20,230 bases of DNA from a virus. Below, piece after piece: positions 17,009 through 20,230 of this stretch; the first letter of the stretch is position 1, and each line of letters opens with the position of its first letter. Location: positions 1 through 20,230 of the IMG/VR virus record IMGVR_UViG_3300025671_000702; one strand, given 5' to 3'. The notes beneath the pieces were generated by a model, which saw only the letters and a program-made list of their open reading frames with translations, ran no database searches and was not told where the DNA came from. The translations under genes and the position numbers were made by a program.

Positions 17009-18994
17009 CTACGCATCAATAAGAAAGGAAGGTCGCCACATGCGAGGTGGACGTTTAGGTTCCGTCAACTTCGGGGCGTGCAACAACATAAACCACAACG
17101 CCATTGCCAAGTCAGTCCCCTTCTTCTTGTCACGAGTCCAAGTTTCCAACTCTTGCACCAACGCCAACGTTTTCCAGTTCTCCGACATGCGAGGCAACCG
17201 CAACGAACCTGACCTGACAACCGGAGGAATCAACGCTTCCAAACCAAAGTTCTCATCCAGCTTGTTGCGTGACGTGGTATGCGGGATTACCAGCACCTGT
17301 CGTAACGCCTGCCAACGTCGCACAAAATCGTGTGCCAACAAAAACCGTTGCGCTGCGTTAATCTCAACAACAATATGTGACACCGGATACCCCATGTCCT
17401 CGGCACGATCACACCAGTCGTCAAGAATTCCGGTATATCGGCCAGTAGACATATCGTAACCGAGCAGGTCTTCTGCTGTAAGTTTGGTGCGTTCGATATC
17501 GACAACGTGATACAAACCGAGATCGGGCTGATAGATAGTCCAAATAACCCCCCAAAAGTTTGCTGGCGAAGGGTCAACCGAAATGATTGACACCCACGGC
17601 GGTTTCAACCCACGAATAATGTTTCCCGGGAAACGGTCACGGTCAATGCAACCCGGATATTCCACACCGTCTGATGCGATACCGCCAATCAACTGTGGGC
17701 GTTCCACAAGCTGATAATCCAAATCTATGTCTTCCTGCTGGTAGACAACACGAAACTTTTGTGGCTGGTTGTATCGGACAAACGACAGGTCTTTCCACGG
17801 TAAACGCACCGGATCAAGCAACGGTCCTTCCGGCCATGCCGGTGCATCCTTACGGCGGGACTGTTTACCGGTGTCCAACTCTTCGTAATACGCTTTGTAA
17901 ATCAGGTGATGGTACTTCGGTATGCGTACTGGGTCAGCCAAAGAGTCTTCTGCGGTTGCATCCTCGCCGTCATCCTCTTCAATGTCGTCGTACGTCACTT
18001 TGTCTAAACAATGTTTGTACAAGTCGCCGGGGCCGAGCCTCTGACCGATCACATTCACCAGCCCGCCAGGGTCACAGCGTGCCTCAGCCATAGAATCCCA
18101 GCGTTCCAGTAGCCGGTCACGGGCAACAGATTCTTTAGCGTTTTCCGGTGAGGCCACATCGTCAAACAAGCACAGGTCGGCACGGTGACCGATGAACTCT
18201 GAGTCGATACCGTACGCAGAAACGGTGGGTTCTTTGTTGTCTAGCCCGCCAGGAATGAACTGTTCCACCACAAATTCTTCTGCACGCCACAACGAACCGG
18301 AAGCTAACGGTTTGAACCTGCCGTAGTCTTGGGCGAGGCAGCCTTCTGCGTCTACCGCCAGCCCTTTCTTCACTTGTTCTGGGTCAACAGTCAAAGCGAC
18401 AGGCCGTTCAAGGGTTTCACGGATACGTCGAGAGTATTGTTTTGCTAGTGTTTGCGAGATCGAGCCGATAAGGACTCGGATCGCACGGTTCCTTACGATA
18501 CACCAGACTGCTACGTCGTGAAAAAGCGTGGATTTTCCGGCACCGGGTGGACAGTTGAGTACCAGAAATTCTTTTTCTTCGGATTCTAGGTGTTGAACAA
18601 TTTTGTATGCTGCGTCTACCTGCCAGGGTGACGGGACTCGACCTAGATAGACGCGCCGGAAGTAGTCAAAGTCGTCCCAGCCTCGTTTTGCTCGTTCGTT
18701 CAGACGCTCATATGGGATGACTGGTGGCAGGTCACCGGCTTCGTCAATGACAGATCGTAGTTCTCGGCGTTCCCTACCAGAGTTTGCGTTCGCTTTTTTA
18801 ACTCCGAGGTCTGCGGCAGCTTGATCGGCTTCAATTTTGCGGCGTTTCGCATCCCATTTTTGGCCGGTGTTGTAATGGATGCCCGCAATTTTGCAGGCTT
18901 CTTTGATGGAGATACCTGCTGCACGGGCTTGCCAGAAACGGGCTTTGTCTTCTAACGGTACGTTGCGTCTACCTGACCGGTCTGTTCCTGACAT
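17009..18994 (-). CDS. terL: Terminase large subunit with N-terminal helix-turn-helix
   Basis: The ATG at 18994 is fixed by an in-frame TGA two codons upstream. The 661-residue enzyme packages DNA into the prohead. Residues about 14-55 (EDKARFWQARAAGISIKEACKIAGIHYNTGQKWDAKRR) form a helix-turn-helix. The ATPase has Walker A PPGAGKST at 149-156 and Walker B LCLFDD at 274-279 (D278, D279). The nuclease has SVDPS with D474, VVEIN with E544 and GTDLAMALWF with D628 as likely metal ligands. SPWQ at 122-125 and the NRAIRVLIGS strand are typical of this type. No separate small subunit is visible in this window, so the fused helix-turn-helix may recognise the packaging site. I recall this HTH-TerL layout from actinobacteriophages. 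No Shine-Dalgarno is seen; a TATCAT box 7 bases before the ATG suggests a leaderless message. It begins the late operon. Confidence 0.95.
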   Translation of the reverse strand: MSGTDRSGRRNVPLEDKARFWQARAAGISIKEACKIAGIHYNTGQKWDAKRRKIEADQAAADLGVKKANANSGRERRELRSVIDEAGDLPPVIPYERLNERAKRGWDDFDYFRRVYLGRVPSPWQVDAAYKIVQHLESEEKEFLVLNCPPGAGKSTLFHDVAVWCIVRNRAIRVLIGSISQTLAKQYSRRIRETLERPVALTVDPEQVKKGLAVDAEGCLAQDYGRFKPLASGSLWRAEEFVVEQFIPGGLDNKEPTVSAYGIDSEFIGHRADLCLFDDVASPENAKESVARDRLLERWDSMAEARCDPGGLVNVIGQRLGPGDLYKHCLDKVTYDDIEEDDGEDATAEDSLADPVRIPKYHHLIYKAYYEELDTGKQSRRKDAPAWPEGPLLDPVRLPWKDLSFVRYNQPQKFRVVYQQEDIDLDYQLVERPQLIGGIASDGVEYPGCIDRDRFPGNIIRGLKPPWVSIISVDPSPANFWGVIWTIYQPDLGLYHVVDIERTKLTAEDLLGYDMSTGRYTGILDDWCDRAEDMGYPVSHIVVEINAAQRFLLAHDFVRRWQALRQVLVIPHTTSRNKLDENFGLEALIPPVVRSGSLRLPRMSENWKTLALVQELETWTRDKKKGTDLAMALWFMLLHAPKLTEPKRPPRMWRPSFLIDA

Positions 18995-19167: not shown

Positions 19168-19941
19168 ATGCAATACGAAATCAGTGCAACAGACTACTTT
19201 GCGATCATCCCCGAAAAAGTCCTGTACGCAGACATCAGTCACATCTCGGTACGCATCTACGGAGTGTTACGCAGACACGCAGACCAAACAGGAAGCTGCC
19301 ACCCCGGACGGGCAAGAATAGCGAAACTCGCACACACAAGCGCAAGTTCAGTAGACCGAGCCATACAAGAACTCGTCGAACACGGCTTCATCACCGTCCA
19401 CCACAGACGCAACCCCGACAATCCACAACAAATGCTGTCAAACAGGTACGTTATCCACAGCACCCCTCCCGCCCATGACCATACCCCTCCCGTGGGTGAT
19501 GATACCCCCCTCCCGCTGGTGACGACACCCCCTCCCGCCAGTGACGAAGTAACCATAGCCATAGAACCAAAGCCAATAAACCACTTCGAGGAATGGTGGA
19601 ACACCTACCCGAAACGGGTCAACCGCAAAGCCGCACAAAAAGCATGGAAAACAGCAACCAAAACAACCAGCCCACAAGCAATCATTGAAGCAACACGCCA
19701 ACAAATCGCAACAACAGGCAGCCCACTATCAAGAGAAGACATCTACATCCCGATGCCATCCTCCTGGCTCAACGCAGGAAGCCACCTCGACCAATACGGA
19801 ACCACAGAACCATCCAGACCATACGACCAACCAACACCCCATCACTGCAACAGATGCGACAGCACCGGACACATCACAAAAACAGATGAAAAAGGCTACT
19901 CATACGCACACCCATGCCCAAACTGCAATGATATAATCTAA
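19168..19941 (+). CDS. Replication initiator-like winged-helix protein with C-terminal zinc motif
   Basis: It starts at ATG 19168 with AGGAGG four bases upstream. The 257-residue protein has four parts. Residues about 25-98 form a winged helix (HISVRIYGVLRRHADQTG, IAKLAHTSASSVDRAIQELVEHGFI), as in phage replisome organisers. Residues about 99-127 are a Pro-rich linker encoded by tandem DNA repeats. Residues 140-205 (FEEWWNTYPKRVNRKAAQKAW, then IYIPMPSSWLNAG) form a domain I recall from phage replication proteins (F..WW..YPK...K..A..AW, ...P..WL....W). Residues 227-253 contain CNRC...CPNC, a four-cysteine zinc site. It is the first rightward gene. The alternative is a transcription regulator. 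The linker DNA contains a DnaA box and four direct repeats, which favours an initiator. Confidence 0.8.
   Translation: MQYEISATDYFAIIPEKVLYADISHISVRIYGVLRRHADQTGSCHPGRARIAKLAHTSASSVDRAIQELVEHGFITVHHRRNPDNPQQMLSNRYVIHSTPPAHDHTPPVGDDTPLPLVTTPPPASDEVTIAIEPKPINHFEEWWNTYPKRVNRKAAQKAWKTATKTTSPQAIIEATRQQIATTGSPLSREDIYIPMPSSWLNAGSHLDQYGTTEPSRPYDQPTPHHCNRCDSTGHITKTDEKGYSYAHPCPNCNDII
19451..19548 (+). other. Candidate replication origin: DnaA box plus four direct repeats inside the initiator gene
   Basis: A perfect DnaA-box 9-mer TTATCCACA lies at 19451-19459. Two bases later four direct repeats begin, at 19462-19482, 19483-19503, 19504-19526 and 19527-19548 (21, 21, 23 and 22 bp). Their common form is ACCCC(C)TCCCG, four or so variable bases, then TGA. 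They are followed by AT-richer sequence with a CCATAGCCATAG doublet. The arrangement within the linker of an initiator-like gene is reminiscent of the lambda origin inside gene O. The repeats also encode a Pro-rich linker, so coding constraint is the main alternative explanation. Confidence 0.5.
19929..19937 (+). promoter_or_regulatory. Consensus extended -10 promoter for the right-end RNA
   Basis: TGATATAAT is an exact TGnTATAAT extended -10. It ends one base before the TAA of the initiator gene. Transcription would begin near 19944-19946, at the start of the gene-free structured region. No -35 is visible, which is common for extended -10 promoters. Confidence 0.6.
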
Positions 19942-19943
19942 CC

Positions 19944-20230
19944 ACCGGCCCACGCAGGCCGCTCAGGTCGTACCCTCGTTGCACAGGGCGGGACGCAACC
20001 CACGGAAACGTGGTCGATCTCTCATGCGTAAACGACGATCCCATAGGAACTCTCGCTAAGGCAGGAAGACGAGAGAAGCACGAACCCGCGAGGGCGACAA
20101 AAACCAACCTAAACGTAAAGCTCCACGACAACGAGCGGGAATCAGGAACAGCGGCACCCTGATGGGGGACAAACACCTCCCTAAGTTCCCAACCAATCCA
20201 ACAAAACCACACATCTCAAACACAGATAAT
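19944..20230 (+). ncRNA. Candidate structured non-coding RNA (5' part, runs off window)
   Basis: This gene-free region has nested potential helices on the plus strand. CCACG-GAAA-CGTGG (20000-20013) is a 5-bp stem with a GNRA loop, enclosed by ACGCA/TGCGT (19993-19997 with 20025-20029). CTCTCG/CGAGAG pairs 20050-20055 with 20070-20075. CCC-GCGA-GGG (20085-20094) has a second GNRA loop. A three-way junction is closed by GGGAA/TTCCC (20137-20141 with 20186-20190). It holds TCAGG/CCTGA (20142-20146 with 20158-20162) and GGGGG/CCTCCC (20164-20168 with 20177-20181, one G-U). Unpaired stretches are A-rich. GNRA loops and the G-U pair exist only on the plus strand. The upstream promoter fits. Large ornate RNAs such as GOLLD or ROOL are known from phages, but I cannot confirm a match. 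Confidence 0.6.

Follow-up and report, generated by a model that had tools for sequence, protein, structure and literature searches.

The window (the whole stretch of 20,230 nucleotides analysed here, positions 1 to 20,230 of the IMG/VR virus record IMGVR_UViG_3300025671_000702) carried two divergent genes near its right end. The terminase large subunit gene (17,009–18,994, minus strand) matched phrog_38 (E 1e-60), and the replication initiation protein gene (19,168–19,941, plus strand), which is the upstream neighbour of the element described below in the window's subgroup, matched phrog_270 (E 4e-36) and Pfam HTH_36. The N-terminal stretch of this terminase weakly matched terminase small subunits or HTH domains, and a small subunit is possibly fused there. 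No tRNA was found within the window. The initiator gene ends with a TAA stop codon at 19,939–19,941, leaving 289 bases to the window end, and these hold a predicted structured noncoding RNA gene on the plus strand, extending from 19,944 (a 5' end placed by the −10 motif) to about 20,181, as delimited by alignments and covariation. One conserved block, CACAGATAAT, lay no more than 2 bases from the right end of the window (20,204–20,230) and likewise from the end of a relative's contig, L018. Several further contigs stopped within a few hundred bases of the RNA. These ends probably mark an assembly fork past a conserved stretch.

An extended −10 promoter motif, TGATATAAT, was read from the sequence at 19,929–19,937 on the plus strand (TATAAT at 19,932–19,937), which predicts a transcription start near 19,944. 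The earlier note had placed this motif across the stop codon; the motif is present, although a single base separates its end from the TAA and the two do not overlap. A TGNTAN(2-3)T element preceded 113 of 158 members among the matches listed, compared with 84 of 790 random control windows (10.6%), and it lay 110 to 15 bases upstream of the members, concentrated at a few distances. A TTGACA-like box could also be read upstream of several members; the consensus scan gave no −35 box in the window, and no Rho-independent terminator 3' of the RNA in the window or in L089. The earlier note had seen no protein-like open frame here, and this agreed with the relatives, in which no reading frame was conserved: a frame stayed open in at most 7 of the 19 sequences of the window's own group (group A) or 4 of the 28 of a second subgroup (group B), and single-base indels occurred in most members. 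A minus-strand ORF at 19,874–20,212 (112 aa) was rejected as a gene, as its relatives contained frameshifting indels and stops and it matched no family. With no frame kept and a promoter motif upstream, a noncoding transcript is the most likely reading of the element.

Among IMG/VR relatives of the initiator, the region 3' of the gene was conserved with paired exchanges. Pattern scans anchored on the conserved loops expanded the set from 17 loci to 37 matches (8 of them new and real), then to 104 and to at least 120, and relatives of 19,944 to about 20,181 were finally found at no fewer than 187 loci, representing at least 160 distinct RNA sequences with the core. These figures are lower bounds for a family known solely from IMG/VR virus contigs. 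A covariance model of the core (R1) was built from 30 sequences including the window, which as a training sequence scored 71.1 bits. Intact copies at the family loci searched scored 64.8 to 73.2 bits, L097, similar in its 5' half only, 48.1 bits, and L075, truncated by a contig end, 38.9 bits; chance matches reached 15.7 and 23.1 bits. The sole match in a genome contig, L124 from an Acidimicrobiaceae MAG, is apparently a chance hit, as it scored 23 bits and the rest of the RNA was absent. Further chance pattern matches were removed by eye (L025, L028, L029, L032, L034, L035, L037–L040, L043, L044, L064, L070, L131, and L161).

The family core is present in the window: a GRAA hairpin comes after G..GUAC-N5-UNGCA-N4-GCGG..C, and P2a, P2, and P3 all pair. 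Upstream of it, hairpin P1 (19,946–19,950/19,957–19,961) showed GC, CG, AU, and UA pairs among relatives, and three of its pairs were changed on both sides. The core proper (19,967–19,994) comprises helix P2a, the invariant internal loop GUA/CGG, helix P2, and the loop NNUNGCAN. P2a (19,967–19,969/19,992–19,994) was unvarying within the window's subgroup but occurred elsewhere as GUC/GAC, GCU/GGC, GGC/GCC, GAC/GUC, or GCG/CGC, whereas the pairs of P2 (19,973–19,976/19,985–19,988) covaried. The hairpin P3 (20,000–20,004/20,009–20,013) carries a GRAA tetraloop, GAAA in the window, on a stem that was invariant within the subgroup and showed CG, GC, AU, and UA exchanges across the family. Around a variable apical region, helix P4a/P4 (20,014–20,023/20,071–20,083) displayed compensatory replacements, with UCUCUC/GAGAGA in the window and CCCCC/GGGGG or CCGC/GCGG in relatives.

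Further 3', hairpin P5 (20,085–20,087/20,092–20,094) bears a GCRA tetraloop, GCGA in the window, and its loop-closing pair changed from C-G to G-C with the loop still GNRA. All members of group A had GRAA in the P3 loop, and all but L076, where an indel lies at this site, had GCRA in the P5 loop. Both GNRA-capped hairpins noticed originally are real, the relatives keeping GAAA or GGAA in P3 and GCGA or GCAA in P5. Hairpin P6 (20,120–20,123/20,133–20,136) was kept by 14 of 19 relatives with weak covariation, and the remainder had other sequence at this site, possibly forming a different hairpin. The stem of P7 (20,141–20,145/20,159–20,163) covaried below a conserved loop around AGCGGCA, with exchanges among UCAGG/CCUGA, UCCAG/CUGGA, and UCUGG/CCAGA. 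Between 20,164 and 20,180 lie a conserved G-run (GGGGG) and a possible hairpin P8 (20,164–20,168/20,176–20,180), for which only one-sided changes were seen; a G-run was found at this position in the subgroups read. The closed three-way junction that the earlier note had drawn was not confirmed, its closing helix (20,137–20,140 with 20,187–20,190) not being retained in relatives.

Pairing across these helices exceeded that of the controls. In group A (n = 19), 93.9% of cells were paired, versus 84.1% in shuffled alignments and no more than 49% with the partner strand slid, and in group B (n = 28) the values were 97.1%, 75.2%, and at most 46.5%; the alignments were sequence-based and the structures were partly drawn from them, so that the slid controls favour these structures. 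Two-sided changes affected 13 pairs in group A and 21 of 31 in group B. Across 30 diverse members, 96.0% of core cells were paired compared with 79.0% after shuffling. Compensatory changes occurred somewhere in the family in P1, P2a, P2, P3, P4, P5, and P7, and the second copy of the RNA in L081, like many members, carried one in the otherwise invariant closing helix of the core. The later scan patterns specified the GRAA loop, the P2 internal loop GUA/CGG, and the apical UNGCA, and the lack of variation at these sites across the full set is in part a product of that selection; the UNGCA and the GUAC were also intact in new members from a scan that had left both unspecified.

Because kinship among sequences can imitate covariation, a phylogeny-aware null was applied. 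A tree of 146 sequences served to reconstruct the substitutions, which were then reassigned to random columns along the same branches. This procedure imitates R-scape in home-made form and is distinct from that program; it scored every column pair blind to structure. Out of 1081 column pairs, the five scoring highest were without exception designed helix pairs (two in P3, one in P2a, and two in P2), the two best belonging to P3 and the P2a/P2 entries being columns 3-28, 9-22, and 10-21. Their scores were never reached in 60 null sets (each E < 0.017). Covariation among homologues, proposed beforehand as a test of the fold, was found, with compensatory core-helix changes beyond phylogeny, and the mutually compatible plus-strand helices (P1 to P7) were present with pairing above shuffled and slid controls. 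The single-sequence folding energy went against a structured RNA: relative to shuffled sequence neither strand gave a signal (z = −0.39 for plus and −0.51 for minus). Of the three refuting outcomes listed in the earlier note, this was the one that occurred, whereas covariation and the lack of a conserved protein frame both spoke for the RNA. As a test the folding energy is weak, and the covariation carries more weight. A conserved DNA element, such as a cos/pac site or operator cluster with hairpin-like palindromes, is highly improbable despite the nearby terminase and a second palindromic motif downstream, as the loops remain GRAA or GCRA, the internal loops are strand-specific, G-U pairs are tolerated, and the promoter motif is directed into the element.

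Comparison with described RNAs gave no assignment. With the Rfam 15 library, no model matched at the gathering threshold in the window and 26 other loci, and searching the window at E up to 10 yielded two implausible eukaryotic matches on the other strand, lying within the initiator gene or on its border. BLAST against cultured phages, with the initiator, the window's RNA, and the RNAs of four further members as queries, returned short chance matches only. None of 396 Actinomycetota genomes contained the RNA under strict filters, a weak negative. A full-text literature search found no description, with subscription papers and preprints thinly covered, so an earlier description is possible. The families suggested originally, GOLLD, ROOL, HEARO, and group I introns, all failed to reach an Rfam threshold. 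GOLLD and ROOL are large ornate folded phage RNAs of unknown function, about 660 nt long in the case of ROOL and often more than 800 nt in that of GOLLD, and both often lie in tRNA islands (PMC12286853). They share with the present RNA a structured noncoding nature, an origin in environmental phages, and a shape kept by covariation; however, the latter measures about 230–250 nt by alignment, about one third of their length, and the window lacks tRNA genes. ROOL and GOLLD assemble into a multimeric RNA nanocage. Their Rfam covariance models gave no matches at gathering in the window and the 26 loci. GOLLD and ROOL are nearest in kind, but the present RNA resembles them at most generally and is no member by the features tested. 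HEARO/omega RNA and group I introns likewise have GNRA-looped folds, but no constant nuclease neighbour or interrupted gene accompanies this RNA, and their models were unmatched in the region of the window even at E up to 10.

The genomic setting of the RNA was considered next to that of the terminase. Among the matches listed, a phrog_38 terminase lay divergently upstream within a few kilobases in 117 of 160 loci. In a sample unbiased by the RNA, 80 loci were chosen by the window's terminase alone, of which 32 had at least 4 kb of upstream DNA, and the RNA or a variant was present in all 32: a canonical core (E < 1e-8) in 23, always upstream and on the opposite strand, a diverged copy in L259, and a variant in the same region in eight. 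In L087-type phages, an HNH-terminase from an unrelated family, phrog_9, is encoded just downstream of the RNA and in the same direction. Such proximity recalls the pRNA of phi29, which is encoded near packaging genes, has its own promoter, and is shorter than the present RNA. Both are phage RNAs often found beside packaging genes, with an own promoter that is predicted here. The pRNA binds the portal and packaging motor; what is seen for the present RNA is its gene neighbourhood. A role as part of the DNA-packaging motor would fit these associations, as well as the N-terminal stretch of the phrog_38 terminases, which weakly matches terminase small subunits or HTH domains. The idea is lowered, however, by the two unrelated terminase families and by G004, in which the RNA lies 11.6 kb from the terminase and is opposed to it and to most neighbours. 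Together with the greater length and a whole-library cmscan in which the Rfam model of phage pRNA was unmatched, these points leave a packaging RNA unlikely.

The RNA with its own predicted promoter usually lies between the leftward structural genes and the other arm, a position where it may act in cis on an early/late divergent region, as a leader, an attenuator, or an antisense of a neighbour. The downstream genes, however, varied in strand and identity between lineages, which makes a cis-acting leader less likely, and an antisense would not need an elaborate covarying fold; regulation of this kind thus appears improbable. In G011, all genes of at least 150 aa point leftward and the RNA rightward, and in G005 the RNA occurs in a phage of quite different gene content. 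L081 (G010) holds two diverged same-strand copies about 11 kb apart (L081:434-488 and L081:11386-11442, corresponding to G010:C1:21694 and 32646).

A link with replication, as a primer, an origin transcript, or a regulator of the initiator, was suggested by the RNA directly following the initiator gene in most members of the subgroup to which the window belongs, by a beta-clamp-like gene close by in other loci, and by turns of the cumulative GC skew near the RNA in G003, G004, and G002. An initiator homologue was nearby in just 18 of 160 loci among the matches listed, which lowers this idea, and the skew, which also tracks gene direction, did not turn at the first RNA copy in G010. GC skew was set aside as an origin marker, since its signal was inconsistent among genomes, and a replication-linked RNA is considered quite doubtful.

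Other features of these phages were recorded. WhiB genes (PF02467) were present in many of the RNA-bearing phages, and for this reason the hosts are probably Actinomycetota. Relatives such as L013 carried a gene resembling C5-cytosine DNA methyltransferases, so named by sequence, together with a YqaJ-like recombinase and WhiB. About 260–570 bases 3' of the core, a palindromic motif approximating GGGTGCCTCGGCAKACCCCC occurred in 59 of 112 members (L127, L130, and L147, for example) compared with 22 of 448 control stretches; in the window, the site would fall beyond the right end. This motif could be an operator, an origin, or a phage promoter element.

The eight variants were of two kinds. In L275, L289, and L290, a different P2 was joined to the 3' domain of group B, suggesting modular exchange. 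A third version, found in the same region upstream of the terminase in L295 and L297–L300, reads CGCACGGGA..AGTGGCCTGAAAAGGGGACCGA...CAGACGGGTTCAG.CG.AAAACAGAACTTGGGGGGGC, with near-identical letters across different contigs and no Rfam match. Its homology to the other versions is less certain, and would be based on position, promoter, the GGCC-GAAA-GGGGACCGA stretch, and the final G-run.

Taken together, the claim of an undescribed structured RNA was borne out by covariation across the family, a promoter-like motif, the lack of a conserved frame, and the lack of an Rfam match. Sequence comparison establishes a conserved structure, the behaviour of a single gene, and constant presence in one sampled lineage. 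We consider, with a probability of roughly 0.6, that these phage RNAs represent a new class whose members are transcribed independently and probably act in trans. Comparison shows conserved helices arranged around a core, in which the two-part stem P2a/P2 with its invariant internal loop is joined by the GRAA hairpin P3 and the long stem P4; the 3' part beyond this core is variable and closes with the G-run. In the proposed model, the RNA's own extended −10 promoter, of the sigma-70 type, would drive transcription separately from the neighbouring genes, early or throughout infection. Tertiary docking of the kind seen in large folded RNAs is suggested by the GNRA loops together with the invariant internal loop. 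The least certain step is action in trans, in which a compact fold of the RNA, or a particle of RNA and protein, would support lytic growth; it is proposed because the RNA is carried as a stand-alone gene, varying in position and orientation, followed by no constant downstream gene, and found in every sampled member of the lineage. Counting against it, the frequent site opposite the terminase gene would also fit a role tied to the locus. A stand-alone, trans-acting folded RNA or RNP nevertheless appears the most likely of the mechanisms considered.

The novelty lies in the RNA class, whose sequence and fold are outside every family tested, and no new mechanism is claimed. RNA classes so widespread and backed by covariation are rarely found, and this one resides in phages known from metagenomes alone, where RNA genes escape annotation. 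The consensus structure is sufficient as the basis for an Rfam-type family. The occurrence of the RNA, or of a variant, in each of the 32 contigs picked by terminase points to a core RNA that is perhaps essential. Whether it might be a trans-acting core component of a large actinobacterial phage group, shared also with unrelated phages, combining interchangeable 5' cores with one common 3' domain and having a job unlike that of any known RNA (for example, in motor assembly or in control of the host machinery), is in our view an evenly balanced question.
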